DNA of 64,000 nucleotides from Conyzicola lurida (lineage in GTDB: Bacteria; Actinomycetota; Actinomycetes; Actinomycetales; Microbacteriaceae). The translations under genes were made by a program, and so were the position numbers. The stretch covers positions 434,001 through 498,000 of the forward strand of contig NZ_JACHMJ010000001.1 of assembly GCF_014204935.1 (NCBI RefSeq), given 5' to 3'. The notes beneath the pieces are model-generated. The model did no database searches and was not told the origin of the DNA. It saw nothing but the letters and a program-made list of their open reading frames with translations. This document shows positions 3,433 through 31,079 of the stretch, in pieces; positions within the stretch are counted from its first letter, which is position 1; every line of letters starts with the position of its first letter.

Positions 3433-4227
3433 TCAGTGCTTCCAGAACCCGCTGAACGTGATGCGGCTCTTCGGCAGGCCGAGGCGGTGCAGGTGGCGTC
3501 GGCCCTCGGTCGCGAGCTTCGACTCGCCGATCACGAAGCCGTAGCCATGGGGGTCGACGTCGGAATGTGCCTTCAGCGCCTCGAGCGCCTTGACCCCGGC
3601 GACGGTGCCGGTGTCCTCGCGCACGATCCAGGAGACGGTGACGCCGGCGGGGCCGACGAGAGTGCGGCGGTCGCCCAGGGTGGGGACCTCCTGGATGACG
3701 CGGCCTACGGCGTGCGCGGGCAGGGAGCGCAGGATGCCCGCGACAGCGGGAAGCCCGCTCTCGTCGGCGACGATGGTGACCTCGGACGCGTCATCCGGCT
3801 GGTCGTAGATGATGCCCTGGTCGAGCACGGCCATCTCGTCGCCGGGCTGCACGGAGCACGCCCAGATAGCGGCCGCACCCTCGAGCTCGCCGGCGGCGTT
3901 GCGGTGCACGACGAATTCGATGTCCATCTCGCGGTCGGCGGGGCGGTAGTCGGCGACCGTGTAGTTGGCGCAGTGCGGGCGCAGGTCTTCGGGGATCGCG
4001 AGCCACTGCTTGTACCACTTGGCGCCGGTCAGGTCGGGGAGGGTGAATAAGGCCTGCCCGGGCTTGCGCATGAACAGGCGGAACCAGTGGTCGTACCCCA
4101 TCCACGGGAAGTCGGCGAGGGAGTCGCCACCGATCGTGACGCGCTGCAGGCTCGGAGTGACGAGTCCGCTGCGGATCACCGTGGCCCGGAAAAGCTGTGG
4201 GTTGTCGGGGGTACGGATTCTGGCCAT
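3433..4227 (-). CDS. Siderophore-interacting protein (FAD-dependent ferric-siderophore reductase)
   Basis: A 264-residue protein of the SIP/ViuB family. Such cytoplasmic flavoproteins reduce ferric siderophores to release iron, using NAD(P)H or ferredoxin. The N-terminal part (about residues 10-120) is the FAD-binding barrel, with PWMGYDHWFRLF and the flavin-contacting YTVADYRP. The C-terminal part (about 120-264) is the SIP NAD(P)H-like domain, with DESGLPAVAGIL and the closing FSGFWKH; the ending YW(K/R).G is typical of the family. An iron box lies 4 bases before the ATG, so expression should rise on iron starvation. No siderophore synthesis or uptake gene is adjacent. The ATG has no separate Shine-Dalgarno sequence because the iron box occupies that position. 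Confidence 0.92.
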   Translation of the reverse strand: MARIRTPDNPQLFRATVIRSGLVTPSLQRVTIGGDSLADFPWMGYDHWFRLFMRKPGQALFTLPDLTGAKWYKQWLAIPEDLRPHCANYTVADYRPADREMDIEFVVHRNAAGELEGAAAIWACSVQPGDEMAVLDQGIIYDQPDDASEVTIVADESGLPAVAGILRSLPAHAVGRVIQEVPTLGDRRTLVGPAGVTVSWIVREDTGTVAGVKALEALKAHSDVDPHGYGFVIGESKLATEGRRHLHRLGLPKSRITFSGFWKH

Positions 4228-4231
4228 TTGA

Positions 4232-4250
4232 GAAGGTTAGCCTAACCTCG
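4232..4250 (-). promoter_or_regulatory. Iron box (IdeR/DtxR operator)
   Basis: On the minus strand the core AGGTTAGGCTAACCT matches all 15 central bases of the IdeR/DtxR consensus TTAGGTTAGGCTAACCTAA. It sits immediately upstream of the siderophore-interacting protein ATG. With Fe2+ bound, the repressor would block this gene. Confidence 0.88.
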
Positions 4251-4434: not shown

Positions 4435-7400
4435 ATGAGTACTCCGTCCCTCGGCCTCGGTTCCCGGCTGCGTCGCAGCGTCGCACCCGCCGTCCTCCTC
4501 CGGTCCGTCGCCGGCGCCGTCGTCGCGATCGTCGCGATGCCGGTCGTAGCGGTCCTCGCGCTGTGGGGTCTCAGCGGCATCGCCCCGACCCTGGCGAGCA
4601 CGGGCCCGGGCGCCATCGCGCTCGGCGCGAGCAGCAACGTCGTCCTCTACGGTGTCTCGGCGCTGGGACTCGTCTTCGGCGTCCTCCTGGTCGGATTCGT
4701 CAACGCCCACGCCCAGTCGGAAACCCGTCGCCCGCTGCGTCTCGCGTTCGCGCGGGCTCTCCGGGCGTACCCGCGGCTCCTGCTGGCGTTGCTGCTCGGA
4801 GGCATCGGTGTCGTCGCCGGCATCCTGCTCTGGCCGTTCATCACGGTCGCCATGGTCGTCGTCTCCGTCGTGCTGCTGGCGCGCGCCCGCCGGTTCACAC
4901 CGGCCGCGCGGCGCGCCCTGCTCTGGGCGATTCCGTTCGCGCCAGTCGCCGCACTGATCGCGCTTGTCGTCGCGGCGTTCCCCACGATCCTGTCAGCGCC
5001 GCGATCGTTGCGAGAGTTGCTCGGCCTCGCCCGCACGCAGGTGAGGTCCGGGTACCGCTCCCTCATCGTCTTCGCTCTGATCGCGCTCGCCGCCGGCGTC
5101 GGACTGAGCTTCGGCGGAGCCTTCGCCGCCGCGGCCGTCGATCCCAGCAACTCGGAAGAGATCACCGGCGCGTACCTCGCATCGATCGGCGTGCTCGGCC
5201 TCGCGCTCGTGCTGCTGCAGCTGATCGTAGGCACGGCGATGGCGACAGTGATGATGGATGCCGCTCCGCCGGCACCCGCGCGCGGTGCACGCGCGAGCCT
5301 GCGTTCCATCGGAGCGCTGATGTCCCGCGGTTCCCGCCCCGCAGTCGGGCGCACCGCCATGGTCGTGGTGCTCGCGCTCGTCGCGACCCTCGCGCCGATG
5401 CCCGCGTTTGCCCAGACGCCTCCCGTGGTCACACCGGCGGTGCCGCAGCTGGACCTCACCGTCGACGGCATCGATGCCTCGCCGCTCGTGACCGCGGCGG
5501 TGACCGTGGTCGACGCCAGTCCGGCCGGTACCGTGCAGTTCGTCGACGGGGAGACGCCGCTCGGCACCCCGATGACCCTGGCCGTCGATCCCGCCGACGC
5601 ATCCCGGTTCACCGCGGTGCTCGACCCCCTTCCCGTGCTCGCCGAGGGAAGCCACGAGATCAGCTTCGTCTTCACCCCGGCCGATGCGACCGTCTACTCG
5701 GCGCAGTCGGCCCCGAAGACCTACGTCGTCGGCTCGACCCCCGTCGCGGTGGCGGTCGAGCCCGCTGTCGAGGAGCCCGTCGTCGAACCCGCGCCCGCCG
5801 CAGAAGTGACCGGGCCCGAGACCGCGGCAGGCATCCCCGCTCCCGCGGTCGAGACAGCGGTCCCCGCGGAGGACGTTCCCGCGACCGAAACGCCCGCGGC
5901 AGAAGCAGACCTTCCCGCGGCAGAAGCAGACGTTCCCCCGGCAGTAACGGACGTTCCCGCGGCCGTAACCGACGCTCCCACGGCAGAGACGGAAATTCCC
6001 CCGGCAGTGACAGACGCTCCCGCGGAAGAGACGGAACTTCCCGCGGCAGAGGCGGAAGCTCCCGCGGCGGACGCCAGCGCGCCCGAGGCAGAAGAAAACG
6101 TGCCCGGGTCACCCGCAGACGTGCCCGCGGCACAATCTCCCGCGGCCGAAATCCCCGCGGCAGAAGTTGCCGTTCCCGCGGATGCCGTGCCGGTTCCGGC
6201 GGCAGAAGACGAGTCGCCCGCGACGGACAGCAGTCCCGTCGAAACACCGAGCATCACCGCGCCCTTCGCCCGTGTCGCGGCCGCCGACGACTTCACCTTC
6301 GTGACCGCGGAGATCAAGACCTTCACGCTGGGCAGCGACTTCGAGGTGAGCGTGCAGGTACGCGCGCCCTACGGCGACGACGACGCCGACGCTCCCGGAC
6401 GCGTCAGCGTCTACGCCGACGGCGTGCTCTTCGCCGAGATCGACCAGACACCGACCGGCGAGTACGTCGGACTCTCCACGGCGACGCTGGCGGCCGTGCC
6501 CGCCGAGGTGCAGTTCGTCTACGAGGGCGAGCCGGGCTTCCTGCCATCGCAGCTGACGATGCCGGTCAACCCGGCGCTACCGATCTCGCAGACCTACTTC
6601 ACGAACCACACGTTCTTCCCCACTGACTACGACATGACCTGGGGCGACACCAACACCGTCACCGTCACCGTCGTCTCCGACTACGACGAGCCCCGCGTGC
6701 TCGAAGTGCTGCAGCTGGTGAACGGATACGACCTGGTCCCGTTGTTCAGCGTCCCCTTCACCATCGTCGACGGTACCGCCGTCGTCACTGCGGATCTCAC
6801 CAAGAAGCTCCCGGGCGGCGAGCCGACCTACACGCTGCGCGTCCCCGCGACCGACATCGCCAGCGAGGCGGGAACCGACTACTTCACGAAGAGAATCGCT
6901 GCCGTCGCCACCACCACTACCCTCGCCGCGACGGACGCCGCGGGCGCTCCCACCGCCGGTGCCGTCGGCCAGCCGATCACTCTCACCGCCGCCGTCGCAT
7001 CGCCAGCCTCGGATTCGACTCCGACGGGCGGGTTCGTTCGCTTCACGATCAACGGCCTGCTCGGTGCTCCGGTCGCGGTCGACGCACAGGGAATCGCGAC
7101 GACAACGTACACGCCTACCACCCGGGCGACGGTGGCCGTGACGGCCGACTACCTGCCCGACAACCGGTTCGCCGCCTACCTGGCGTCGTCGGATGCGCTC
7201 AGCCTCAACCCGGGCGGCATCGCCACCCAGGCGCCGACCGCCGTCTGGAGTGGTGCGCTGACCGTGTCCGACACGCGCCTCACCGTGACCTACCCGACCG
7301 GCGACGGAATCGCCTCGCCCACCGGCACGGTCACGATCCTCGACGCCGCGGGCACGCCGGTGCGGATCTCGATCGCGGGCGGGGCGGCACAGACCTCGTT

Positions 7401-10400
7401 CGCCCTCTACGGAGGAACGACCACTCTGCCGATTCCGTCTGCCGGCGGCATCCTTAACTACTCGGTGTCATACTCCGGCGACACGATCTACTCCCCGCGC
7501 ACCGACCGGCTGCCCCCGGTCACCGTGCTCCCGCCGACGGTCGCCCTCACGGCGCCGGCACCCGCGTACTTCACCGAACGCACGCCGTTCACTGTCGCGG
7601 TCGGCAACGTCGACGCGGCGCTCGTGCACGACGTCACGATCTACGCCACCCTCCAGGGTGGTGCGCCCCACAGCCTCGGTACCGTGCGAATCAACTCCGC
7701 CGGCGTCGGCACCACCACGGCCGTGTTCCCCGAATCAGGCGACGTGACGGTGACCGCCGTGGTGAGGTTTACCGCGACGAGCGGCATCGCGGCCGCGACA
7801 TCCGTGCCTCAGATCGTGATCGTGCCCGAGCCGGCCGCACCCACGGTGAGTCTCGAACTCGCGAGCTCGACCATCTTCGGCGTCGGTCGCCGCGACATCG
7901 GGCTGCGCGTCGCCGTCGACTTCGGCCGCGAACCCGCATCGATCACGGGCGGGGCCGTGGCGGTCATCCGCGACGAACTCGGGGTGAAGGTCGGAAGCGT
8001 GACCCTCGACTCCCGGCTCGGCGGCTGGGGAATCGTGAGCCTGAGCCGCGCCAGCACGACGAGCCTCACCGCCACCGTCGTCTACGGCGACGACGGCGAG
8101 ACTGCCTCGAGCACACCGATGATCGTGAGCGTGCCGCCCCGCACGACCAGCACTACCGTCTCGAGCACGCAGTCGCCGACCACGGCCGGCAACACCGTGT
8201 CGATCGAGGTGGCGGCGGAGGTGTCCGGCACCCCGCTCGACTCGACCGCCAGCATCCCCGTCACCGTCGAACTGAACGGCGAGACGCAGACGCTCGAGCT
8301 CGCACGAACCGAGGAAGAGCGCGACTACGGCTGGCTCGGGTCCACCGCCTTCCTCGAGGGCACCGCCGAGTTCGCGATCGCCGACGCGGGGGCGTACACG
8401 CTGCACGTGACCGGCGACGGCAACGGCACCGACGTATCGCCGATCGACTACCGCCGCACGATCACCATCGACCGGCACACCAGCGCGATCGTCGTGCGGG
8501 GCACCGACGCCGTGGTCGGCGGAAAACCGTTCAGTCTCACACCGGTCGTCTCGGCGACCGACGCCGGAGGCCGCGCTCCGACGGGCACGGTCGCGGTGAC
8601 CCTGTACCCGTCGTTCCAGCGTTGCGAGGTGGCGGTCGGCGCCTCGTGCGACTTCCCCGCGGGCGCCGCGGTCAGCGGCACGAACTCTTTCGCCGTCAGC
8701 TACTCGGGCGACGCCGACCACCTGCCGCGTGCGACCTCCGGCGAGTTCAGCGCCGCGGCCCGTACGACCGCGATGACCACGGGCTTCGGCACGGCAACGG
8801 ACAAGTGGGTGGTGGGCGAGCGGGTCACGGCCAACTGGGTCGTCACCACCTCCGGCACCGCGGCACGGGGCTGGGTCTACGTCACCGCTGGCAACCAGCG
8901 ATGCGGCGCCGCCGTCGCCGACGGCCACTGCGATTTCACGGTGCCGGAGAACTCCCTCTCCTTCGAAGACGCCGGACAGACCTATACGTTCGAGTTCGTG
9001 TCCGGCGACGACGCCCCGTCCAAGAAGGTGAGCGGCAGTGCCGTGTGGCGCGACTGCGTCTTCGTCTACGCGTATGTCCCCGTCGATGTCAGCGCCGCCG
9101 AGCCCTGCGTGGCCCGGGGACAGAAGGGAGTCTTCCCGGGCAGCACCGTGTCGTTGACGACCAACCTGATTCCCGACAACTACGTGTTCGACGGCTGGAC
9201 CCTCAACAACAAGCCCGTGACCGGTACGAAAACCGTCGGCCGCACCACGTCGTTCGTGGTGAAGAGCGGCGGCATGTTCACGTACGACACGAAGTGGGCA
9301 CCCGTCTGCTTCACGCTCACGGTCTCGCCGAACAACGTCGCCACCCGGTCCGAAGCCAAGGGGTCGATCACCGTCCTGAACCAGCCCAACTGCGCGAGCC
9401 CGTTCGGACCCACCGCGGAAGAACTGAAAGAGCTCGCCGCCGGCAAGCCGCGGTACGCGAAGGGAACGGTCGTCGACGTTCGGGCGGACCCGCAGACCTA
9501 CAACCCGGCGGGAAACCAGCCGTTCTTGCAGTACACGGTCGTCTCGTTCGACGGCGTCGTGCCCGAGCCGGCCTACCGGGACTTCGGGCGGGTCACGATG
9601 AACGGCGACCGTGCGATCTCGGCAGTATTCGCCGTGCCCGACTGCTCCCCGTTCACCCTGCTCCAGACCCGCGGAGGCACGGCCTCGGTCGTGTCGTCTG
9701 CGCGCCCGGCATCGAGCGGAGCGCTGAAGCCGGCGACCGGCGCGTGCACGACGCCCGACGGCCGGGCAGGATACGTGCCCGGCACCAAGGTCGTCGTGGA
9801 GTCCGTCCCCGATTCCGGCGCGGTGTTCGACAAGCTGGTCACCGCCGGGGCCTTCCCTGCGGTGCGCGACACCTTCCCGAGGGTCACCACAACCCCGCAG
9901 AAGACGGGCGAGCCTGTCCGCACATCCGTCGAGATCGGGCTCCGAGCCGCGACGGTCGCCTGGTCGACATTCTCGTACCGGGACTGCGTGACCGTTGTCG
10001 TCCGCGATACCAGTCCCGCCCAGAGTTCGAGCGGTGCACGTCTCGCCGCCCTCGATCCCGCGCAGATGTGCGCCGCGCCGAAGACCAGCGCGGTCACCAC
10101 GGAGAGTACGTGGCAATCCACCTACCGGACGTGGACCACGACCTATTCGGTGCTTTCGAACGCCACGGTTCGGGCCGTGGCAGACTACCCCGCCGCGAGC
10201 GGTATCAAGCTCTCCTACCTGAGCTGGTCGGTCAGAGTCGGCGCGACAACCCTGAAGTCCGCCGATCGCATGAACTTCATGGACGCGTATCAGGGCGGCA
10301 TACACCCGGCGCTCAACTACGTCGGCCAGGACGGTGAGAAGGAAGGCCCGTATATCGACCTGGCCCTCCTCGGCCCGTCCGAACGGGTCGTGTACGTCGA

Positions 10401-11751
10401 TGGCGTCATCGGGGCATACAACTGCACGAAGCCGTACGTCGAGAACCCCTTCGGCGTCGCATACGGCCAGCGCGCGTTGTACAGCACGATGCAGAAGTGC
10501 AAGGAGGACGGATTCGTGCTGCCGAGCGATCAGGTCGAACTGCGCGCCGCGAAGCCCACGAGCGGCTCCCTGACCCCGGTGTGGTCGTTGTCTGGCGGTT
10601 CGTCGAACGACGGCCGGTACTACTACCCGGGGAGCACGATCCAGGTCGCGGGCAACTCCCGCGTGGCCCTCGAGTACTGCGCCAACCTGCCGCTCACCGT
10701 GCGTCAGCGGGACGACTCGGGCACGTTCTCGGTGCTGAACGCGAGCCAAGCAGCCGCGCTCATCATGGACACCGGCGGGTGCGCCCCGATGCGCACGCGG
10801 CCGGGCGGCACGGTGCAGACCGGGCTCACGGTCGCGGCGGCCTACCAGTACAGCCTCGTCAACCCGGCAGCCGGCATGCCGAAGTTCGTGGTCGACGGAG
10901 CCGGAAATTCTGCCGCTGCCACCCTCGACATCGCCGTGAACTGCGTCACGGTGAACACCGGCGACCGTACCCGTGCCGAGACCCCTGCCAACTGCCCGGG
11001 CGGCGGCAGTAACCGCTATCTCAAGGGCACGGTCATCCAGTTCAACGGCGACGTGCGCGACGACGAAGGACTCGAGGGCTGGACGGGTGTCGACGAGCAG
11101 AACGGCGTCACCGCGTGGGTCATGGCGGAGACCGACCGCTGGGTCGAGGTGGACATCGACTACCCGAGCTTCTGGGAGAAGGTCGGCAACGCGTTCAGCA
11201 ATCTCGCGGGCCGCATCGTCTCGGTGGCGGTCACCATCGCCACCGGCATCGTGCTCGCCAAAGCCATGCTGGTCAAGATGGCGAGTTCGGCGCTGAAGGG
11301 GATCGGCGCGATCGTGATGATCGCCGGCGGCGGCGACGGCATGCTCAACGCGATGACGAAGTTCGACAACGGCGTCTCGGCGATGATCAACTCCGCGCAG
11401 TTGCTCAGCACGTGCCTCAACACGTCGGCGCGGGGCCCGGGCAACCTGACCGACCTGCCGAGCGGCGCACTGGGCTCGGTGGGTGTCGTCGCCGTGAACG
11501 GCGGCATCTCGGCTACCAACGCCGGGCTCGCGAAGTACGGGGAACTCGCGTCGAAGACCCAGGGCATGAGCTCGGCGTTGGGCGATGCCGCGACGGTGCT
11601 GTCCTACGGCCGTACCCTCGTCGACGGATTCGGCAGCAATGTCAACATGTATTCGAGGGACGCGACCGAAGTGTGGACGACCATGGGCAACGACCTGGGC
11701 GGCTGCATGTCGTCGGGGCTCGAGTCGAACTTCAAGCTCGCGACCAGTTGA
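4435..11751 (+). CDS. Giant multi-pass membrane/surface protein with Ig-like repeats (2438 residues)
   Basis: I do not recognise the whole protein. Residues 1-300 contain five or six hydrophobic helices (e.g. VVAIVAMPVVAVLALWGLSG) without an obvious family. At about 305-330 there is a segment that looks like a classical signal peptide, with a hydrophobic core and PAFAQTPP, inside the protein. Then come: an Ig-like Big_3_5 domain (about 335-435, GTVQFVDGETPLGTP), an Ala/Pro/Glu low-complexity stretch (about 445-605), a long series of further Ig-like domains (about 615-1530), Cys-containing modules with YVFDGWTLNN resembling InlB-type repeats (about 1540-2230), and a C-terminal region with two hydrophobic helices (about 2250-2310). 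The role is probably adhesion or envelope structure. No sortase motif is present. The frame is unbroken over 7.3 kb. The start ATG has only a weak ribosome site (GAATGAG). Confidence 0.75.
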   Translation: MSTPSLGLGSRLRRSVAPAVLLRSVAGAVVAIVAMPVVAVLALWGLSGIAPTLASTGPGAIALGASSNVVLYGVSALGLVFGVLLVGFVNAHAQSETRRPLRLAFARALRAYPRLLLALLLGGIGVVAGILLWPFITVAMVVVSVVLLARARRFTPAARRALLWAIPFAPVAALIALVVAAFPTILSAPRSLRELLGLARTQVRSGYRSLIVFALIALAAGVGLSFGGAFAAAAVDPSNSEEITGAYLASIGVLGLALVLLQLIVGTAMATVMMDAAPPAPARGARASLRSIGALMSRGSRPAVGRTAMVVVLALVATLAPMPAFAQTPPVVTPAVPQLDLTVDGIDASPLVTAAVTVVDASPAGTVQFVDGETPLGTPMTLAVDPADASRFTAVLDPLPVLAEGSHEISFVFTPADATVYSAQSAPKTYVVGSTPVAVAVEPAVEEPVVEPAPAAEVTGPETAAGIPAPAVETAVPAEDVPATETPAAEADLPAAEADVPPAVTDVPAAVTDAPTAETEIPPAVTDAPAEETELPAAEAEAPAADASAPEAEENVPGSPADVPAAQSPAAEIPAAEVAVPADAVPVPAAEDESPATDSSPVETPSITAPFARVAAADDFTFVTAEIKTFTLGSDFEVSVQVRAPYGDDDADAPGRVSVYADGVLFAEIDQTPTGEYVGLSTATLAAVPAEVQFVYEGEPGFLPSQLTMPVNPALPISQTYFTNHTFFPTDYDMTWGDTNTVTVTVVSDYDEPRVLEVLQLVNGYDLVPLFSVPFTIVDGTAVVTADLTKKLPGGEPTYTLRVPATDIASEAGTDYFTKRIAAVATTTTLAATDAAGAPTAGAVGQPITLTAAVASPASDSTPTGGFVRFTINGLLGAPVAVDAQGIATTTYTPTTRATVAVTADYLPDNRFAAYLASSDALSLNPGGIATQAPTAVWSGALTVSDTRLTVTYPTGDGIASPTGTVTILDAAGTPVRISIAGGAAQTSFALYGGTTTLPIPSAGGILNYSVSYSGDTIYSPRTDRLPPVTVLPPTVALTAPAPAYFTERTPFTVAVGNVDAALVHDVTIYATLQGGAPHSLGTVRINSAGVGTTTAVFPESGDVTVTAVVRFTATSGIAAATSVPQIVIVPEPAAPTVSLELASSTIFGVGRRDIGLRVAVDFGREPASITGGAVAVIRDELGVKVGSVTLDSRLGGWGIVSLSRASTTSLTATVVYGDDGETASSTPMIVSVPPRTTSTTVSSTQSPTTAGNTVSIEVAAEVSGTPLDSTASIPVTVELNGETQTLELARTEEERDYGWLGSTAFLEGTAEFAIADAGAYTLHVTGDGNGTDVSPIDYRRTITIDRHTSAIVVRGTDAVVGGKPFSLTPVVSATDAGGRAPTGTVAVTLYPSFQRCEVAVGASCDFPAGAAVSGTNSFAVSYSGDADHLPRATSGEFSAAARTTAMTTGFGTATDKWVVGERVTANWVVTTSGTAARGWVYVTAGNQRCGAAVADGHCDFTVPENSLSFEDAGQTYTFEFVSGDDAPSKKVSGSAVWRDCVFVYAYVPVDVSAAEPCVARGQKGVFPGSTVSLTTNLIPDNYVFDGWTLNNKPVTGTKTVGRTTSFVVKSGGMFTYDTKWAPVCFTLTVSPNNVATRSEAKGSITVLNQPNCASPFGPTAEELKELAAGKPRYAKGTVVDVRADPQTYNPAGNQPFLQYTVVSFDGVVPEPAYRDFGRVTMNGDRAISAVFAVPDCSPFTLLQTRGGTASVVSSARPASSGALKPATGACTTPDGRAGYVPGTKVVVESVPDSGAVFDKLVTAGAFPAVRDTFPRVTTTPQKTGEPVRTSVEIGLRAATVAWSTFSYRDCVTVVVRDTSPAQSSSGARLAALDPAQMCAAPKTSAVTTESTWQSTYRTWTTTYSVLSNATVRAVADYPAASGIKLSYLSWSVRVGATTLKSADRMNFMDAYQGGIHPALNYVGQDGEKEGPYIDLALLGPSERVVYVDGVIGAYNCTKPYVENPFGVAYGQRALYSTMQKCKEDGFVLPSDQVELRAAKPTSGSLTPVWSLSGGSSNDGRYYYPGSTIQVAGNSRVALEYCANLPLTVRQRDDSGTFSVLNASQAAALIMDTGGCAPMRTRPGGTVQTGLTVAAAYQYSLVNPAAGMPKFVVDGAGNSAAATLDIAVNCVTVNTGDRTRAETPANCPGGGSNRYLKGTVIQFNGDVRDDEGLEGWTGVDEQNGVTAWVMAETDRWVEVDIDYPSFWEKVGNAFSNLAGRIVSVAVTIATGIVLAKAMLVKMASSALKGIGAIVMIAGGGDGMLNAMTKFDNGVSAMINSAQLLSTCLNTSARGPGNLTDLPSGALGSVGVVAVNGGISATNAGLAKYGELASKTQGMSSALGDAATVLSYGRTLVDGFGSNVNMYSRDATEVWTTMGNDLGGCMSSGLESNFKLATS
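5870..6200 (+). repeat. Low-complexity degenerate repeat inside the giant gene
   Basis: The motif TTCCCGCGGCAGAAG or TTCCCGCGG recurs about every 30 bases in frame. It encodes an Ala/Pro/Glu/Thr/Val-rich linker with units such as LPAAEADVPPAVTD. The likely role is a flexible spacer that carries the Ig stack through the wall. Such repeats are prone to slippage. Confidence 0.7.
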
Positions 11752-11941
11752 GCGCGCGGCGGCGGTTAGGCTCGCGGGAATGAACCCCGTACTGACCGCC
11801 GTCGCCGTGCTCGCCCTCGGCGCGATCGCGGTCGCGGCAGCTGCCGCTTCACGAGGCGTCACGCCGCAGCTAATCGCGGAGCATCCGACTAAAATCGTGC
11901 CGGGCGGCCCCCGGCCCCCACCGACTGGACGGAGAACGCTC

Positions 11942-12418
11942 ATGACCGAGCAGAACGCACCCAAAATGAAGGTCGAATCCTTCAACCTCGACCACCGCGC
12001 TGTCGCGGCCCCCTACATTCGTCTCGCCGACCGCAAAGAGCTGAAGAGCGGGGGAGTCATCACCAAGTACGACATCCGCTTCACGCAGCCGAACGTCGCG
12101 CACCTCGAGTCCGACGCCGTCCACTCCATCGAGCACCTGTTCGCCGAGAACTCGCGCTCGCACTCCGACCGTATCGTCGACTTCTCGCCGATGGGATGCC
12201 GCACCGGCTTCTACCTGATCCTCGACGGTGAGTCCGAGGTCGACGACGTCATGGACCTCGTCGAGGCCACGCTGAACGACATCCTCGCGGCCACCGAGGT
12301 GCCCGCCGCCAACGAGGTGCAGTGCGGATGGGGCGCCCACCACACCCTCGAGGGTGCGAAGTCCGCGATCGAGCCGTTCCTGGCCGCGCGTTCCGAGTGG
12401 TCACGAGTAATGGCGTGA
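11942..12418 (+). CDS. luxS: S-ribosylhomocysteine lyase LuxS
   Basis: A 158-residue LuxS, which cleaves S-ribosylhomocysteine to homocysteine and DPD, the precursor of autoinducer-2. The metal ligands are visible: HSIEH (the HxxEH pair) and the later Cys in QCGWGAHHTLEGAK. The catalytic Cys is in SPMGCRTGFY. The ATG at 11942 is preceded by GGAG at a normal distance. The open frame continues upstream to an ATG at 11780 that would add 54 residues with a hydrophobic segment, but LuxS normally begins at the later ATG. The 3' end overlaps mtnN by 4 bases, so the two SAH-recycling steps are coupled. Confidence 0.95.
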   Translation: MTEQNAPKMKVESFNLDHRAVAAPYIRLADRKELKSGGVITKYDIRFTQPNVAHLESDAVHSIEHLFAENSRSHSDRIVDFSPMGCRTGFYLILDGESEVDDVMDLVEATLNDILAATEVPAANEVQCGWGAHHTLEGAKSAIEPFLAARSEWSRVMA

Positions 12419-13119
12419 CGTCGTCGCGCGCCATCGTCGTCACGGCGATGGCTGACGAGCTCGGCCCGCTGCTCGAGCGCGCCACGGAGGTCGGCGAAGA
12501 GACCGGCATCGCCGGCGGCTTCCGTCGCGACGCCGTGCTCGGCGGCGTGCCCGTCGTGTTCGTGCAGAGCGGTGTCGGCATGGTCAACGGTGCGATCACG
12601 GTCGCGGCCGTGGTCTCCGCCGAGCAGGCCGCCGGTCACACCATCGACCTCGTGGTCAGCGCCGGGACGGCCGGCGGCATCGGCCACGGCATCGTCGTCG
12701 GCGACGTGGTCGTCGCGAGCGAGTGCATCTCCGGTGACGCCGACGCCCGAGCCTTCGGGTACGTGCTCGGCCAGGTGCCGCGCATGCCCGCCACATATCC
12801 GAGCGACCCGCGCGTCCTCGAGATCGCGGTGACCCTGCCGAACGTCATCCCGGGTCTCATTCTCTCGAGCGACACCTTCGTCACGCCCACGCGTGCCGAG
12901 GTGATGCGCCTCAACTTCCCGGGCGCGAGCGGTGTGGACATGGAGTCGGCCGCCATCGCGCAGACCAGCTTCCGCTACGGGCTGCCGTTCGTCTCGGTGC
13001 GCGGCATCTCCGACGGGGCCGACGAGTCCGCGGCATCCAGCTTCAAAGAGAACGTGGTGATCGCCGCCGACCGCTCGGCCGACGTCGTGGTGTCGATTCT
13101 GGAGCGCCTGCTTAGATAG
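12415..13119 (+). CDS. mtnN: 5'-methylthioadenosine/S-adenosylhomocysteine nucleosidase
   Basis: A 234-residue nucleosidase that removes adenine from S-adenosylhomocysteine or methylthioadenosine, making the S-ribosylhomocysteine that LuxS uses. The family landmarks are present: VSAGTAGG near the ribose/phosphate site, DMESAAIA with the ribose-binding Glu, and RGISDGAD with the catalytic Asp. The GTG at 12415 overlaps the luxS stop (GTGA) and gives the usual length; another GTG lies at 12397 and an ATG at 12448. The stop codon is inside the first copy of a 15-bp tandem repeat. Confidence 0.93.
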   Translation: MTSSRAIVVTAMADELGPLLERATEVGEETGIAGGFRRDAVLGGVPVVFVQSGVGMVNGAITVAAVVSAEQAAGHTIDLVVSAGTAGGIGHGIVVGDVVVASECISGDADARAFGYVLGQVPRMPATYPSDPRVLEIAVTLPNVIPGLILSSDTFVTPTRAEVMRLNFPGASGVDMESAAIAQTSFRYGLPFVSVRGISDGADESAASSFKENVVIAADRSADVVVSILERLLR

Positions 13120-17842: not shown

Positions 17843-20800
17843 ATGCGCACTTTCCGACGGCCCATCGTGGCCGCCCTCACCGGCCTGGCACTCGTGGTGC
17901 CGCTCTCCGCGGTCGCGGCGCCGGCGCTCGCCGTTCCCGCCCTGCCCACCGTCGCGATCAACGAGATCGAGTCGAACGGCGACGCCACCGACTGGGTCGA
18001 GCTCGTCAACACCGGAACCGACCCGGTCGATATCTCGGGCCTGATCTTCAGCGACAACAAGGACGAGGACAAGGTCGTCATCCCTCCGAACACCGTGCTG
18101 CCCGTCGGCGGGTTCTACGTCATCGACGAACCCGCGCTGACGTTCGGTTTGGGCGGAGGGGACTCGGCACGCCTGTTCACGGCCGACAACCTGACGCTGA
18201 TCGACTCCTACGTGTGGACGGCGCACGCGGCCGTCACGTACGGGCGCTACCCCAACGGCACGGGCGCCTGGATCGCGACGGATGCCGCGACCAAGGGTGC
18301 GCCGAACACGGCGGTCCTGCCGAAGGTCGCGATCAACGAGATCGAGTCGAACGGCGACGCCACCGACTGGGTCGAGCTCGTCAACACCGGAACGACATCG
18401 GTGGACATCTCGGGTCTGATCTTCAGCGACAACAAGGACGAGGACAAGGTCGTCATCCCGGCGAACACCGTGCTGCCCGTCGGCGGGTTCTACGTGATCG
18501 ACGAGCCGGCGCTGACGTTCGGCCTGGGTGGCGGCGACTCCGCGCGCCTCTTCACGGCAGACAACCTGACGCTGATCGACTCCTACGTGTGGACGGCACA
18601 CGCGGCCGTCACGTACGGGCGCTACCCGGACGGCACCGGCGCGTGGACGTCGTCGACCGTCGCGAGCAAAGGTGCGGCCAACCCGTCGGCGGTCGTGGTG
18701 ACCCCGACGCCGACCCCCACGCCGCCGACGACGCTCCCCGCGCTGCGCATCAACGAGGTCGAGTCCAACGGCGGCACGCCCGGCGACTGGGTCGAGCTGT
18801 ACAACTCGGGGTCGACCGCGGTCGATATCTCGGGCTACGTCTTCCGTGACAACTCGTCGGCGGCGGACCACGCGTACCTGATCCCGGCGGGATCCTCCGT
18901 CGCAGCCGGCGGCTACTTCCTGCTCGAGGAGGCGGCGTTCGGGTACGGACTCGGCGCTCCCGACTCCGCCCGCCTGTTCGCGGCCGACGGTGTCACCGTG
19001 GTCGACGAGCGCAGCTGGACGGCACACGCCATCCCCACCCTCGGCGTCTGCGGCACCTCGTTCATCGTCACCACCTCGTCGACGAAGGGCGCGGTCAATG
19101 ACTGCAGCCCGCCCGTACGCATCAACGAAGTCGAGTCGAACGGCGACACCACCGACTGGATCGAACTGAAGAACAACGGGGCAGCCGCGGTCGACCTCGG
19201 CGGCTTCATCCTCAAGGACAACGGCGACAAGGACTCCTACACGTTCCCGACGCCGACGACGCTCGCGGCCGGCGCCTACCTCGTCGTCGAGCCGGTGTTC
19301 GGATTGGGCGGCGGCGACTCCGCGCGCCTGTTCGCCGCCGACGGCACCACGGTGATCGACAGCTACACCTGGACCGCCCACGCGACGACCACCTACGGCC
19401 GCTGCCCCGACGGCACCGGCGAATTCGCCACCACGGCGGCGTCGACCAAGGGCGCGGTCAACGCGTGTGTCGGCGACGTCGTCACGAGCCCGTGGCCCGG
19501 CGCCGAGACGGTGACCGCCGTCGACGCGCAGAATACCTACGCGAGCAACCTCAGCGGACTCGCCTACGAGACCGCCGTTTCGGGCGACGTGCTCTGGGCC
19601 GTGCAGAACGGACCGGGCACGCTGTTCCGACTGACGGAGAACGGATCCACCTGGGCCTCCGATTCCAGCAGCGGCTGGGGGAGCGGCACGGTGCTGCACT
19701 ACCCGAACGGCACCGGCAACGTCGACGCGGAGGGCGTGACCCTCACCGCGGCGGGCGCCGTCGGCGGGTTGTTCGTCTCGAGCGAGCGTGACAACGACGC
19801 GGGCAGCGTGAGCCGCACCTCGGTGCTGCGCTACGACGTCACGACGCCCGCGACCGTGCTGAACGCGACCATGGAGTGGAACCTCACCGCGGACCTGCCG
19901 ACCGTGGGTGCGAACCTCGGCCTCGAGGCGATCGCCTGGGTGCCCGACTCGTTCTTGGTCGGGGAGGGGCTGGTCGACGAGACCACCGGTGCCGCATACA
20001 ACCCGGCGGCCCACGCGAATCACGGTACGGGGCTGTTCTTCGTCGGTCTCGAGGCCGGCGGCGTCTACGCCTACGCGCTCGACCAGGTGACGGGCGGATA
20101 CACCCGCATCGCCACCGTCACGACCGGCCTCGGCGGCGTCATGGACCTCGAGTTCGACGCCGAGAACGGCGCGCTCTGGGCGGTCTGCGACGACACCTGC
20201 AACGGCCGCTCGGCCGTGCTCGAGGTCGGCGCCGACGGACACTTCGCGACCGCGACCGTGTACGAGCGTCCCGCGGGCATGCCGAACCTCAACAACGAGG
20301 GCTTCGCGATCTCCCCGCAGTCCGCCTGCGTCGCCGGAGCGAAGAGCGTGTTCTGGGCCGACGACTCGAGCACCGGTGGCTTCGCCCTGCGAGCCGGCTC
20401 GATCGACTGCACCGTGGTGACGGAGCCGACGCCTGAGCCGACGCCCACGCCGACGCCCACGCCCACGCCGACGCCGACGCCCAAGCCCACCCCGGTCCCG
20501 ACGCCCACCCCGACGCCGGTGCCGACTCCGACTCCGACTCCGACGCCCACCCCGGAGCCCGAGGAGCCGGGAACGACCCCGACGCCCACCCCGGCGCCGA
20601 CCCCGACCCCGGCGCCGACCGTTCCCCCGGTCGATCCGGAAGTTCCCCCGGTCACTCCGACGGTGCCCCCGGTCGAGCCGACACCGGCACCGACGGTTCC
20701 CCCGGTCGATCCTGAGGTTCCCCCGGTCACTCCCACGGTTCCCCCGGTCGATCCGGAGGTACCCCCGGTGGAACCGACTGTTCCCCCGGTCGGTCCGGAA

Positions 20801-21265
20801 ATTCCCCCGGTCGAACCGACTGTTCCCCCGGTCGGTCCGGCGCCGAGCGACGGTGCGCCCGTCCCGGTCTCCGAGACACTGTTCACCGAGGCCGCCCGCG
20901 GTCCCGTCAGCTCCCCGTCCAGCGCGACCGAGGGCGGCAGCATCACGATCACGGTCGGCATCCAGTACGCCGGCGAGACGGTCGACGTCTGGGTGCACTC
21001 GACGCCGGTGCTGCTCGGCACGACGGTCGTGCGCGCCGACGGCACCGTGCGCGTCACCCTGCCGGCGGGCCTCACCGGCGAACACCGCATCGCGGTCGTC
21101 GCCGAGGACGGGACGCTCATCGGCTGGGACAACGTGTCCATCGCCGCGACGGAGACGCTCGCGAGCACGGGCGCGGACCTCGGCGGTCCGATCCGGGCGG
21201 CGCTGATCCTGCTTCTGGCGGGCGCGGGGCTCCTGGTGCTCCGACGTCGGCAGGCAACGGCGTAA
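17843..21265 (+). CDS. Sortase-type wall protein with four lamin-tail domains and a phytase-like domain
   Basis: A 1140-residue secreted protein. Residues 1-32 form a signal peptide ([16 protein letters not shown]). Four lamin-tail (LTD) domains follow at about 33-155, 158-280, 300-425 and 430-555, each opening with INE(I/V)ESNG...DW(V/I)EL. The next region (about 560-850; [28 protein letters not shown]) looks like the esterase-like-of-phytase beta-propeller. A Pro/Thr/Val linker spans about 855-1000. The end carries LASTG (residues 1106-1110), a hydrophobic helix and RRRQATA, which is a sorting signal of the LAXTG type used by class E sortases in actinobacteria. No sortase is in the window. 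LTD domains in bacteria often occur with nucleases or phosphodiesterases; the function here is unknown. No clear Shine-Dalgarno sequence precedes the ATG. Confidence 0.85.
17951..18690 (+). repeat. Tandem duplication of a 375-bp unit encoding the first two lamin-tail domains
   Basis: The sequence starting GTCGCGATCAACGAGATCGA at 17951 recurs at 18326 and stays almost identical through the unit, including synonymous positions. This points to a recent duplication. The third and fourth LTD domains are far more diverged. Confidence 0.85.
20627..20840 (+). repeat. Degenerate Pro-rich codon repeat (TTCCCCCGGTC) in the wall-protein linker
   Basis: GTTCCCCCGGTCGATCCGGA and variants recur about ten times in frame, encoding V-P-P-V-(D/E/T/G)-P units. 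It follows a simple (Pro-Thr)n stretch and forms the wall-spanning linker before the C-terminal domain. Confidence 0.75.
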
Positions 21266-25638: not shown

Positions 25639-25758
25639 GCGGTGGATGGACGGCGGGGCACGGCGTGACACAGCCCCGGCCGGCCTCGTTTGCCGCCCGT
25701 TCACCTCGCCTCGCTACACTCGCGGGATTCGTCGTCAGCACAGCCCCGAGGAGCTTTC

Positions 25759-28700
25759 GTGACCACCCCGAACGCCCAGGGCATGCTCGCCGGGTCCGCC
25801 CGAACCACCCCCGAGCGCACGCTCATCGACGTGTTCCGCGCGTCGGTCGTCGACTTTCCCGACGCCGTGGCGCTCGAAGACGCGCAGGGCGGCATCAGCT
25901 ACCGCCGGCTGGAGAAGCTCGTGGCGGCGCAGGCGGCCGAGCTCGGGCGGGCGGGCGTACGACGCGGCGACCGCGTCGGGATCCGCATCGCGTCGGGGAC
26001 CCGCGAGCTCTACGTGTCGATCCTCGCCGTGATGGCCGCGGGCGCCGCCTACGTTCCCGTCGACGCCGACGACCCGGAGGAGCGCGCGCAGCTCGTGTTC
26101 GGCGAGGCCCGCGTGGCCGGCGTCGTCGGCGCAGGGGGAGTGTTCGAGCCGTCGGTCGCTGAGCCTGTCGACGCGGCGCCAGAAGCACCGGCGCCCGACG
26201 ACCTGAACCCGCTGTTCCTCGAGCCGACGGTCGCTGAGCCTGTCGAAGCGACGGTCGTGGGGGACGAGACCGGGGACGAGCCCTTCGACAGGCTCAGGGA
26301 CCCCGAGTCTGCGACCCCGACCCCCGACGACGACGCCTGGATCATCTTCACCTCGGGTTCGACGGGCGTGCCGAAGGGCGTCGCCGTCAGCCACCGCTCG
26401 GCGGCCGCGTTCGTCGACGCCGAGGCGCGGCTCTTTCTGCAGAAGACCCCGATCGCGCCGGGCGACCGCGTGCTCGCGGGCCTGTCGGTCGCGTTCGACG
26501 CCTCCTGCGAGGAGATGTGGCTGGCCTGGCGAAACGGCGGCTGCCTCGTGCCCGCACCGCGCTCGCTCGTGCGCTCGGGCGTCGACCTCGGCCCGTGGCT
26601 GATCGCCCACGGCATCACGGTCGTATCGACCGTGCCGACGCTCGCCGCGCTCTGGCCGGAAGAGTCGCTCGAGCAGGTGCGCCTCCTCATCTTCGGCGGC
26701 GAAGCCTGCCCGCCCGAACTCGTCGCCCGTCTCGCCGCCCCCGGCCGCGAACTCTGGAACACCTACGGCCCGACCGAGGCGACCGTCGTCGCGTGCGGCG
26801 CCCTGCTCGGCGGCCCCGGCCCCGTGCGCATCGGCCTGCCGCTCGACGGCTGGGACCTCGCCGTCGTCGACGCCGCGGGCGACCGCGTGGCCGAGGGCGA
26901 GACCGGCGAGCTGATCATCGGCGGCGTCGGCCTCGCGCGCTACCTCGACCCGGCGAAGGACGCGGAGAAGTACGCCCCGTTCGAGTCGCTCGGCTGGCAG
27001 CGCGCCTACCGCAGCGGCGACCTCGTGCGGTTCGACGCGGAGGGTCTCGTCTTCGTCGGACGTGCCGACGACCAGGTCAAGCTCGGCGGGCGCCGCATCG
27101 AGCTCGGCGAAATCGATGCCGCGTTACAGGCGCTCGAGGGAGTTGCCGGAGCGGCATCCGTCGTTCAGACCACGCCCGCGGGCAACCACGTGCTCGTCGG
27201 CTACCTCGCCCTCGTCGACGGTGTCGACTTCGACCGGAACGCTGCCAACGAACGCCTCCGCGAGGAACTGCCGGCGGCCCTCGTGCCGCTGCTCGCCGTG
27301 GTCGACTCGCTGCCCACCCGCACGTCGGGCAAGGTCGACCGGGCGGCACTGCCGTGGCCGTTGCCGGCATCGGATGTCGCGGCCGACCTCTCGCCGACGA
27401 CCCAGTGGCTCGCGGGAATCTGGTCGAGCATCCTCGGGGCGAGCGTCGGTGACGCCGACGACGACTTCTTCGCGCTCGGCGGGGGATCGCTCTCGGCCGC
27501 CCAGCTGGTCTCGGCGATCCGCGAGCGCTACCCGCGCACCCTCGTCTCCGACATCTACGACTACCCGCGCATCGGCTCGCTCGCGGACGAGCTCGACGGC
27601 CGCGAACCCCCGGTCGAGACCGTGGCGCGCGACGTGCGGCCCACACCGCTGCGCAGCCAGGTCGCGATGACGCTGCTCGGTATCCCGCTGCAGGTGCTCG
27701 CCGGCATGCGCTGGCTGGTCTACCTCGGGGTGGCGAGCAACCTGCTGCCCTTCCTGCCCGACGTGTCGTGGTGGTGGATCGCCGCGGGATTCGTGCTCTT
27801 CGTCACGCCTCCGGGCAAGATGCTCGTCTCGGTCATCGCCGCCCGCCTGTTGCTCGCCGGTGTGAAGCCGGGCAACTACCCGCGCGGCGGTTCGGTGCAC
27901 ATCCGGCTCTGGCTGGCCGAACAGGTCGCGCTGCTCGTCGGCGCCGCCTCGCTCGCCGGTGCCCCGTGGATCAGCTACTACGCCCGCGCGCTCGGCGCGA
28001 AGATCGGCCCCGGCGTCGACCTGCACGCCCTGCCGCCGGTCACCGGGATGCTCACCATCAGCGAGCGCGCCGCCGTGGAGCCCGAGGTCGACCTCGCCGG
28101 GTACTGGATCGACGGCGACGTGCTGCGCCTCGGTGCCGTGCACATCGGCGCGGGCGCGCGCATCGGCTCGCGCAGCACCCTGCTCGGCGGCGCCAGCGTC
28201 GGCCGCGGGGCGATCGTCGAGTCGGGATCCGCCGTCTCGGGCCGCGTCCCCGCCGGCGAACGCTGGGCCGGCTCGCCCGCCGCCCGTGTCGGCGCCGCCC
28301 GTCCTACCTGGCCGATCGAACGCCCGCCGCGCGCCACCCGTTGGCTCGTCGCCTACTCCGTCGGATCGCTCGTGATGTCGGCGATCCCCGCCGCGGCGGT
28401 CGTGCTCGGCGCGCTCGTGGTCGGCGCCGCCGTCGCGGGAGCGCCCGATCTCGGGTCCGCGCTGCTGCCCGCCGCGGCATCCGTGCCCCTCGCCGTGATC
28501 GTGGCCGGTCTCGCCTACGCGGCCCTGGTCGTGGCATCCGTGCGCCTGCTCTCTATCGGTCTGCGCGAGGGCCACTACCCGGTGCGCAGCCGGGTGGGCT
28601 GGCAGGTCTGGGCGACCGAGCGTATCCTCGACGCGGCCCGCACGCTGCTGTTCCCGCTGTACGCGAGCCTCATCACGCCGGTCTGGCTGAGGATGCTCGG

Positions 28701-29736
28701 GGCCAAGGTGGGCAAGAACGTCGAGATCTCGACGGTGCTTCTGGTGCCCTCGCTCACCACGATCGCGCAGGGCGCGTTCCTCGCCGACGACACGATGGTC
28801 GCCACCTACGAGCTCGGCGGCGGCTGGGTGCGCATCGGCCGGGCCAAGGTCGGGCGGCGGGCGTTCCTCGGCAACAGCGGAATCACCGGCCCCGGCCGCA
28901 CCGTGCCGCGCAACGGTCTGGTCGCCGTGCTCTCGGCCACGCCGAACAAGGCGAAGCGCGGCTCGTCGTGGCTCGGCAACCCGCCGGTGCGGCTGCGGCG
29001 CACGGTGACCGACTTCGAAGAGGGCCGCACGTTCCTGCCCGCCACCCGCCTGCGGTTCGCGCGCGCCGGCTGGGAGATCCTCCGCATCGTGCCGGTGATC
29101 GTCACGGCGTGGATCGCGCTCGGCGTTCTCGTGTCGCTCGCCGCGCTGTCGCTCGCGCTGAGCCCGCTCTGGGCCGTCGCGCTGTCCGGCGTCGTGCTGC
29201 TCGCCGCCGGAGCGGTCGCCGCCGGCGTCACCACCGCCGCCAAGTGGGTACTCGTCGGGCGCATCGACGGCTCCGAACACCCGCTCTGGTCGTCGTTCAT
29301 CTGGCGCAACGAGGTGGCAGACACCTTCGTCGAGATGGTCGCCCGCCCGTGGTTCGCCTCCAACGCCGCGGGCACCCCGGCGCTCGCGGTCTGGCTCCGC
29401 ACGCTGGGCGCCTCGGTCGGCAGGGGCGTCTGGTGCGAGAGCTATTGGCTGCCCGAGGCCGATCTCGTGACCCTCGGCGACGGCGCCACGATCAACCGCG
29501 GCTGCGTCGTGCAGACACACCTGTTCCACGACCGGGTGATGCAGCTCGACACCGTCGCGCTCGCCGCGGGCGCGACTCTCGGCCCGAACAGCGTGATCCT
29601 GCCCGCGGCATCCATCGACCAGGCGGCCACGGTCGGCCCCGGCTCGCTCGTAATGCGCGGCGAGCGGGTGCCCACTAGCACGATCTGGTCCGGAAACCCG
29701 ATCGCTCCGTGGAAATCCCCACCGTGGAATACTTGA
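25759..29736 (+). CDS. Pls/PosA-family non-ribosomal peptide synthetase (poly-amino-acid synthetase-like)
   Basis: A 1325-residue single-module NRPS with the architecture of epsilon-poly-lysine synthetase. The adenylation domain (about 1-550) has the core motifs IIFTSGSTGVPKGVA (195-209), FDAS (246-249), NTYGPTE, YRSGDL, GRADDQVKLGGRRIE and TSGKVDR (catalytic Lys525). The carrier domain has DDFFALGGGSLS with the pantetheine Ser577. It ends not with a condensation or thioesterase domain but with three left-handed-helix (hexapeptide-like) domains at about 743-840, 979-1065 and 1215-1318, each flanked by pairs of transmembrane helices (about 635-685, 860-930, 1110-1165). In the family this membrane part joins activated monomers into a homopolymer. 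The specificity code reads DAESIGTVVK, close to the lysine code DAESIGSVCK. The GTG at 25759 follows GAGGAG. The A-domain linker (128-190) holds repeat-derived sequence. The M1 peptidase follows within 10 bases. Confidence 0.9.
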   Translation: MTTPNAQGMLAGSARTTPERTLIDVFRASVVDFPDAVALEDAQGGISYRRLEKLVAAQAAELGRAGVRRGDRVGIRIASGTRELYVSILAVMAAGAAYVPVDADDPEERAQLVFGEARVAGVVGAGGVFEPSVAEPVDAAPEAPAPDDLNPLFLEPTVAEPVEATVVGDETGDEPFDRLRDPESATPTPDDDAWIIFTSGSTGVPKGVAVSHRSAAAFVDAEARLFLQKTPIAPGDRVLAGLSVAFDASCEEMWLAWRNGGCLVPAPRSLVRSGVDLGPWLIAHGITVVSTVPTLAALWPEESLEQVRLLIFGGEACPPELVARLAAPGRELWNTYGPTEATVVACGALLGGPGPVRIGLPLDGWDLAVVDAAGDRVAEGETGELIIGGVGLARYLDPAKDAEKYAPFESLGWQRAYRSGDLVRFDAEGLVFVGRADDQVKLGGRRIELGEIDAALQALEGVAGAASVVQTTPAGNHVLVGYLALVDGVDFDRNAANERLREELPAALVPLLAVVDSLPTRTSGKVDRAALPWPLPASDVAADLSPTTQWLAGIWSSILGASVGDADDDFFALGGGSLSAAQLVSAIRERYPRTLVSDIYDYPRIGSLADELDGREPPVETVARDVRPTPLRSQVAMTLLGIPLQVLAGMRWLVYLGVASNLLPFLPDVSWWWIAAGFVLFVTPPGKMLVSVIAARLLLAGVKPGNYPRGGSVHIRLWLAEQVALLVGAASLAGAPWISYYARALGAKIGPGVDLHALPPVTGMLTISERAAVEPEVDLAGYWIDGDVLRLGAVHIGAGARIGSRSTLLGGASVGRGAIVESGSAVSGRVPAGERWAGSPAARVGAARPTWPIERPPRATRWLVAYSVGSLVMSAIPAAAVVLGALVVGAAVAGAPDLGSALLPAAASVPLAVIVAGLAYAALVVASVRLLSIGLREGHYPVRSRVGWQVWATERILDAARTLLFPLYASLITPVWLRMLGAKVGKNVEISTVLLVPSLTTIAQGAFLADDTMVATYELGGGWVRIGRAKVGRRAFLGNSGITGPGRTVPRNGLVAVLSATPNKAKRGSSWLGNPPVRLRRTVTDFEEGRTFLPATRLRFARAGWEILRIVPVIVTAWIALGVLVSLAALSLALSPLWAVALSGVVLLAAGAVAAGVTTAAKWVLVGRIDGSEHPLWSSFIWRNEVADTFVEMVARPWFASNAAGTPALAVWLRTLGASVGRGVWCESYWLPEADLVTLGDGATINRGCVVQTHLFHDRVMQLDTVALAAGATLGPNSVILPAASIDQAATVGPGSLVMRGERVPTSTIWSGNPIAPWKSPPWNT
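26148..26305. repeat. Dispersed repeat sequence incorporated in frame in the NRPS adenylation domain
   Basis: Three partial copies of the genomic inverted repeat lie within coding sequence: around 26151-26175, 26222-26250 and 26279-26305. The second and third are opposed, and TGAGCCTGTCGAAG (26234-26247) pairs perfectly with CTTCGACAGGCTCA (26283-26296). They encode SVAEPVDA, TVAEPVEA and EPFDRLRD, a non-conserved insert of about 60 residues just before the ATP-binding FTSGSTG loop. Confidence 0.8.
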
Positions 29737-29744
29737 GCGCACAC

Positions 29745-31079
29745 ATGCCTCATAACCCGCAGCCGTCCCATGGTTCCGCCTCGGCGGGCGATCCCTACCT
29801 TCCGACGAGCGGCAACGGCGGCTACACGGTCGCGCACTACGACCTCGAGCTGACCTACCGGGTCGAAACCAACCAGCTGCGCGCCGTCGCCACCATCAGC
29901 GCGATCGCCACGATGGACCTGGAGAAATTCAGCCTCGACCTCGCCGGGCTCAGCGTCGAGAAGCTCACCGTCGACGGTGACCGCCCGCGCAAGTCGAACC
30001 AGGCCGCGCGCAAGATCAACGTCACCCCGGTCGCGCTCATCCCGGCCGGCGACCCGTTCGAGATCGTCGTCCGCTACGGCGGATCCCCGCACCCCGTGCG
30101 CAGCCCGTGGGGCGACGTCGGCTGGGAGGAACTCGCCGACGGCGTCATCGTCGCGAGCCAGCCCTCCGGTGCGGCATCCTGGTTCCCCTGCAACGACCAC
30201 CCGAGCAGCAAGGCCACGTACCGCATCTCGGTGAGCTGCGAGGCGCCGTACACGGTCGTCGCCAACGGCACGCTGAGCGGCAAGAGCACGCGCTCGGGCC
30301 GCACCACCTGGGTGTACGACATGAAGCAGCCGATGGCCACGTACCTCGCGACCGTGCAGATCGGGCGCTACACGAAGCGCGACCTGCACCAGGGCGTGCT
30401 GGCGCGCCAGCTCTACTACCCGCCGGAGATCGCCGGCAACGTCTCCACCGACTTCGGCCGCCTCGACGACATGATCGCGGTCTTCGTCGAGAAGTTCGGC
30501 CCGTACCCGTTCGACTCGTACAGCGTCGTCGTCACGCCCGACGAGCTCGAGATCCCGCTCGAGGCCCAGGGCCTCGGCATCTTCGGCCGCAACCACGTCG
30601 ACGGCGCGCACGGCAGCGACCGGCTCATCGCCCACGAGCTCGCGCACCAGTGGTTCGGCAACAGCCTCACGGTCGAGAGCTGGCGCGACATCTGGCTGCA
30701 CGAGGGCTTCGCCTGCTACGCCGAGTGGATCTGGTCCGAGGGCAGCGGCGGCCAGTCGGCGCACGACAACGCCGTCGCCTACCGCGCCCGGGTGAAGGCC
30801 GCGCCCAAGGACTCGCTCATCGTCGGCGACCCCGGCGCGAAGGACATGTTCGACGACCGGGTCTACAAGCGCGGGGCCCTCGCCCTGCACGCGATCCGCC
30901 TCTCCGTCGGCGACACGGCGTTCTTCGCCGCGCTCCGGGCGTGGGCGCGTGTCTACCGCCACGGCAGCGTCACGACCGCCGACTTCGTGGAGTTCTTCTC
31001 CAACCACACCGGCAGCGAAGAGATCGACGGGATCGTCGACCGCTGGATCTACAAGGCCGCGGTCCCCGACCTCAGCTGA
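29745..31079 (+). CDS. M1-family zinc metallopeptidase
   Basis: A 444-residue gluzincin peptidase. The zinc site HELAHQ (about residues 297-302) is followed 18 residues later by the third ligand in LHEGFACY. The N-terminal beta domain (about 15-200) includes AASWFPCNDHPSSKATY, typical of M1. The substrate loop reads EAQGLGIFG in place of the GAMEN of classical aminopeptidases. No signal peptide is seen, so it acts in the cytoplasm or leaves by another route. It starts 8 bases after the NRPS stop; GTG codons at 29709 and 29724 are alternative starts overlapping the NRPS. A location directly behind a Pls-like synthetase suggests cleavage of the polymer, as inferred for peptidases next to other poly-amino-acid synthetases. 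The 3' end overlaps the convergent PPTase gene by 31 bases. Confidence 0.9.
   Translation: MPHNPQPSHGSASAGDPYLPTSGNGGYTVAHYDLELTYRVETNQLRAVATISAIATMDLEKFSLDLAGLSVEKLTVDGDRPRKSNQAARKINVTPVALIPAGDPFEIVVRYGGSPHPVRSPWGDVGWEELADGVIVASQPSGAASWFPCNDHPSSKATYRISVSCEAPYTVVANGTLSGKSTRSGRTTWVYDMKQPMATYLATVQIGRYTKRDLHQGVLARQLYYPPEIAGNVSTDFGRLDDMIAVFVEKFGPYPFDSYSVVVTPDELEIPLEAQGLGIFGRNHVDGAHGSDRLIAHELAHQWFGNSLTVESWRDIWLHEGFACYAEWIWSEGSGGQSAHDNAVAYRARVKAAPKDSLIVGDPGAKDMFDDRVYKRGALALHAIRLSVGDTAFFAALRAWARVYRHGSVTTADFVEFFSNHTGSEEIDGIVDRWIYKAAVPDLS

Follow-up and report, generated by a model that had tools for sequence, protein, structure and literature searches.

A polytopic membrane domain, an internal signal-peptide-like segment and a giant repeat stalk encoded by one open reading frame of Conyzicola lurida

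One described system that resembles the protein reported here is LtaS of Staphylococcus aureus, in which SpsB (signal peptidase I) cleaves between A217 and S218, behind a polytopic N-terminal domain, and releases the extracellular part (PMC10865820); that a signal peptidase site can follow a polytopic domain is thus already known. In a 64,000-nucleotide window of the Conyzicola lurida genome (the whole stretch of DNA analyzed here), a giant protein repeats this order as a sequence pattern, i.e., a polytopic N-terminal domain, an A-x-A-type site and a putatively extracellular part. In contrast to LtaS, it carries no sulfatase-type catalytic domain (Big_3_5 was the only domain above the cut-off in a Pfam scan of the whole protein), its extracellular part would be a repeat stalk of ~2100 residues, and its cleavage is predicted, whereas that of LtaS is proven. 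Other systems share single parts of the layout. Gram-positive surface proteins and adhesins with Big_3_5 Ig repeats have these repeats, great length and a Pro-rich linker in common with the giant protein, which differs from them in beginning with a polytopic domain instead of an N-terminal signal peptide and in having no LPxTG motif; sortase-anchored surface proteins differ from it in the same two respects, the LPxTG motif being C-terminal. Proteins with divergent InlB B-repeats (Flg_new_2, PF18998) resemble its C-terminal half in their repeat signature, but the repeats of the giant protein mostly contain a conserved cysteine pair and mostly score under the Pfam cut-off. CysZ (EI24 family), which is built of two long transmembrane helices and two hemi-penetrating hairpins (PMC5967866), has a hydrophobic pattern comparable to that of the N-terminal domain and ranks at the top in structural comparisons with its model, but it shows no sequence match and is a permease that stands alone, with no extracellular stalk attached. 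The original prediction stated that no family with this layout was known, and the libraries searched agree, although LtaS is a partial precedent; neither the fused layout nor the two terminal domains were found in these libraries, and no description was found in the open-licence literature.

The gene occupies positions 4435..11751, stop codon included, of the forward strand, on which all features of the giant protein given below also lie; it starts with ATG and encodes 2438 amino acids without interruption. Coding codon usage extends along the whole frame (GC by codon position, 0.65/0.55/0.88). Since the genome is complete and consists of a single contig of 3.64 Mb, an assembly join is unlikely, and the fusion of all parts in seven of seven orthologues together with the single-contig genome rules out a fusion or frameshift artefact. 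Matches indicating plasmid carriage were sought for the gene, and none was found. From the N-terminus onward, the protein comprises six hydrophobic segments and the signal-peptide-like segment, followed by Ig repeats of the Big_3_5 type, InlB-B-like repeats rich in cysteine, and a helical domain at the C-terminus. The predicted open frame with a multi-pass N-terminal domain is thus borne out, being coding throughout and having all six hydrophobic segments within residues 1-300.

Six further full-length orthologues (G005, G081, G868, G1109, G1045 and G1126; 2312, 2777, 2180, 2284, 2409 and, as the longest ORF, up to 2286 aa) repeat this layout, each as one uninterrupted protein, and the layout is therefore more than chance. 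They are spread over two families of one order, G081 representing the other family, and G005 belongs to the same genus as the window (metagenome-assembled genome Microbacteriaceae RYN_93, contig JAODMO010000030.1). When 99 relatives were searched separately with residues 1-308 and with the last 283 residues, both queries returned the identical two ORFs, those of G005 and G081; a profile search with the C-terminal half added G868, G1109 and G1045, and a genus-level search added G1126. The N-terminal domain alone, run against genome contigs, gave nothing, and a second contig scan gave only the G005 assembly. Identity to the window protein is 28-53% in the N-terminal domain and 21-71% in the C-terminal domain (G1126 left out). 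In a sample of 398 genomes of the family, the C-terminal half and strong N-terminal matches occurred in the same 5 genomes, and neither part was found without the other at a strong score. Weaker N-terminal matches in G237, G128 and ~15 other genomes, short and mostly at E 1e-4 to 1e-2, were judged to be due to chance, as was one in G512, which contains internal stops. The original prediction had offered a membrane anchor carrying a stalk and cleavage releasing that stalk as the two options, and had named homologues with two separate genes, or ribosome profiling that places the start near 5359, as outcomes that would overturn it; fusion in seven of seven orthologues and the protein-level conservation of residues 1-300 answer these doubts, and the two options are still the right ones to weigh.

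The giant protein belongs to a family that is rare and conserved, yet has diverged deeply, and whose members would be giant surface proteins. Its distribution is patchy: the gene is present in 2 of 6 genomes of the window's genus and in 2 of 16 genomes of another genus, in which one additional genome (G1129) holds a remnant. This remnant (L031, 9848-9970) retains the last 41 residues amid rearranged flanking DNA and broken synteny, indicating that the giant gene can be lost. Neighboring genes vary among the orthologue loci and form no conserved neighborhood or cluster; G1109 and G1126, whose DNA is near-identical, have neighbors in common.

The N-terminal polytopic domain (residues 1-300; 4435..5334) contains hydrophobic segments at residues 25-43 (4507..4563), 69-87 (4639..4695), 115-149 (4777..4881; 35 uncharged residues), 161-189 (4915..5001; with a WAIPFAP kink), 209-235 (5059..5139) and 243-266 (5161..5232), and hydropathy places six such segments ahead of the signal-like segment in the orthologues too, the starts of which were set by alignment for the comparison of hydropathy and charge. 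Counts of lysine and arginine in all orthologues suggest that the N-terminus is inside. Loops rich in these residues precede segments 1, 3, 4, 5 and 7, and few or none follow segments 1 and 5; the charged loops before segments 1, 3, 5 and 7 and the K/R-poor stretches after 1 and 5 would therefore make segment 7 cross from inside to outside in each orthologue. Segments 3 and 4, both flanked by positive loops on either side, are ambiguous under charge rules and could be re-entrant or hairpins. The simplest reading would thus pair segments 1 and 2 as well as 5 and 6, make 3 and 4 re-entrant or hairpins, and let 7 lead outside. Between the window and G005, residues 1-300 differ at 115/76/177 sites in codon positions 1/2/3 (51% amino-acid identity), and this excess at the third position shows that they are translated; G1109 and G1126 do not differ in any of the N-terminal 300 residues, their DNA showing two silent changes there. 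Invariant residues across six orthologues include R23, P113, R159, R160, P167, P170 and R193. Translation starting only near 5359 is ruled out by this protein-level conservation. No match was found for the N-terminal 308 residues in NCBIfam, and none that was convincing for the domain in Pfam, NCBIfam or PDB sequences.

No N-terminal signal peptide is present in any orthologue, the polytopic domain preceding the signal-like segment in all of them. This segment, correctly foreseen in the original prediction, spans residues 296-326 (5320..5412), reads MSRGSRPAVGRTAMVVVLALVATLAPMPAFA and ends in PAFA before QTPP, so that the proposed signal peptidase I site falls between A326 and Q327 (between 5412 and 5413). 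In all seven orthologues segment 7 ends with a proline followed by alanine at -1, alanine or valine at -3 and a free -2 position (F, S or R), with the variants PAFA/Q, PASA/Q, PASA/A, PVFA/D, SASA/A and AARA/A (the slash marking the proposed cut), and a short hydrophobic core is found in the segment in each of them. A-x-A motifs occur frequently in chains as rich in alanine as these, and the background chance of [AV]xA per 12-residue window of these domains is 0.34-0.53 per protein; single occurrences would accordingly mean little, and the product over six proteins, ~0.006, is too favorable a figure, the proteins being relatives of one another. After the segment, lysine and arginine are sparse (1-5 per 100 residues). 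Inspection by eye showed no typical twin-arginine motif, of the kind used in Tat export, ahead of it. Taken together, the segment looks like a cleavable signal peptide.

The putative stalk contains a Pro/Ala/Glu-rich linker (residues 431-621; 5725..6297), and 5 of 7 orthologues have a Pro-rich linker shortly after either the signal segment or the first of the Ig-like domains. The Ig repeats that had been predicted for the stalk are present at about residues 640-1500 (6352..8934), where Big_3_5 (PF16640) matches in 4 stretches with 66.5 bits against a gathering score of 35.5 (E 3.3e-18; best stretch 838-917); scores above the cut-off also came from the five further orthologues that were scanned (all but G1126), and each of the six proteins thus covered has 4-7 stretches. 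They do not fill the stalk, the region of about residues 1541-2240 (9055..11154) consisting instead of cysteine-paired InlB-B-like repeats, for which Flg_new_2 (PF18998) gave 19.7 bits in the C-terminal half of the window protein (cut-off 23.6; E 8e-4) and 25.5 bits, above the cut-off, in G1109. Cysteine is absent from the window protein ahead of residue 1397, and from there on 20 conserved cysteines form ten likely pairs; 16 of these columns show no variation across the seven proteins, and the other four differ in G081 only, where neighboring cysteines were left unmatched by the aligner. About 60% of the proteins that Actinobacteria export have an even cysteine count (PMC9974433). The even, paired cysteines suggest ten disulfides and an extracytoplasmic C-terminal half. 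Judging from its repeat content, the stalk may have an adhesive or structural role. The G081 orthologue (L008, 3760-12090) carries an additional insert with cysteines, which by eye is CSLREA/beta-helix-like, after the signal-like segment and ahead of the Ig repeats.

The conserved C-terminal domain (residues 2245-2438; 11167..11748) had been described as unfamiliar, and in a separate search it indeed gave no convincing match in Pfam, PDB sequences or the other family libraries searched. Of the two additional hydrophobic segments predicted here, hydropathy rates only the one at residues 2261-2279 as strong. Conserved cysteine pairs flank the strong segment (2170/2187 before it, 2327/2424, the final pair, after it), and a single crossing would therefore make the pair 2327/2424 cytoplasmic; the segment more probably forms a hairpin or is a hydrophobic helix buried in the domain's fold, implying that the C-terminus may lie outside. 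The AlphaFold model of the domain reached a pLDDT of 37. A PHROG tape-measure match (E 0.013) was judged to reflect hydrophobic-helix resemblance. With respect to sortase signals, no LPxTG occurs at the C-terminus of any orthologue, and one loose LPGSA string occurs in G868.

From these features we propose that the N-terminal domain would enter the membrane, probably co-translationally and with its N-terminus inside, so that the chain would again be inside after segment 6. The seventh, signal-peptide-like segment would then cross from inside to outside and start Sec export of ~2100 residues, comprising the Ig repeats, the disulfide-paired InlB-B-like repeats and the C-terminal helical cap. Signal peptidase I would most likely cleave behind the A-x-A motif, yielding a separate stalk and an N-terminal domain that stays in the membrane, as in staphylococcal LtaS. 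The joint reading of an inserted N-terminal domain, an exported stalk and signal peptidase cleavage is, on balance, a probable one. If cleavage occurs, there would be no obvious means of retaining the stalk except perhaps the C-terminal hydrophobic segment.

Possible, if rather unlikely, is that segment 7 stays uncleaved and forms a permanent integral membrane anchor, the N-terminal domain replacing a sortase or lipid anchor and the giant stalk passing through the wall. The lack of LPxTG or any other wall anchor and the fusion of N-terminal domain and stalk in every case are consistent with such an anchor, and the Pro/Ala-rich linker that 5 of 7 orthologues have close to the membrane, and that resembles a wall-spanning one, fits an attached stalk no less well than a released stalk; the conserved (-3,-1) pattern, the free -2 position, the preceding proline and the short core in all orthologues, however, resemble a signal peptidase site more than an uncleaved helix. 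A bolder reading, which we regard as doubtful, is a self-splitting protein whose membrane domain would deliver its own 2100-residue stalk and then release it or hold it non-covalently, while the C-terminal hydrophobic domain would re-insert and leave the stalk tied at its far end or looped.

It is quite improbable that the N-terminal domain is a working transporter, channel or sensor, possibly CysZ-like, with the stalk as a sensory or docking arm. Its charge pattern is similar to the CysZ arrangement of two long helices and two hairpins (PMC5967866), and in a VIA-align comparison of its AlphaFold model (built from six sequences) with 386 chains, two CysZ structures ranked first and second, with Z 8.9 (rmsd 4.8 over 192/227 residues) and Z 8.5 (rmsd 5.3 over 188/213), values obtained with a low-confidence helical model. 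That model is all-helical with a mean pLDDT of only 59.5, however, and Foldseek found nothing for it at E<=0.001 (best E 0.19). VIA-align Z scores under about 13 are common for helical bundles. Moreover, the Pfam EI24 profile of the CysZ family matched the N-terminal domain of none of 6 orthologues up to E 10, and the gene has no conserved partner. Given the quality of the helical model, a CysZ-like fold may be taken as a lead rather than a finding. An internal start at M296, from which a conventional secreted stalk would be made in addition to, or in place of, the full-length protein, is highly improbable, since the GGAG a few bases upstream of the residue-296 ATG in the window (CGGAGCGCTG-ATG) has no Shine-Dalgarno-like counterpart in the other five orthologues checked, several of which lack an ATG there, and residues 1-300 show protein-level conservation and are fused to the rest in all seven.

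If insertion, export and cleavage proceed as proposed, the family would represent a layout for surface anchoring or release beyond the sortase, lipoprotein and S-layer routes, in which a very large protein could be exported by fusion to a co-translationally inserted membrane domain and one gene may yield both an anchor and a releasable stalk. The layout offers a clean test case for signal peptidase I cutting behind a polytopic domain in Actinobacteria, and the N- and C-terminal ends define protein families now missed by annotation.

Several other features of the window were observed around the giant gene. A palindrome at 4234-4248 (AGGTTAGCCTAACCT), ~190 bases upstream of it, resembles a DtxR/IdeR iron box by eye and adjoins the start of a siderophore-interacting-protein-like gene (3433-4227, minus strand). 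Directly downstream (11800-13119) lie genes that by eye are LuxS-like and MTA/SAH-nucleosidase-like, a pair recognized next to none of the other orthologues. Further along, 17843-21265 encodes a secreted protein of 1140 aa with four lamin-tail domains and a phytase-like esterase domain, followed by a long Pro/Thr/Val repeat and an anchor-like C-terminal end. Finally, at 25690-31588 a 1348-aa AMP-binding/carrier/hexapeptide synthetase is found together with a phosphopantetheinyl transferase and a peptidase of the M1 type, an arrangement that we take to resemble the polylysine-synthetase (Pls) layout.
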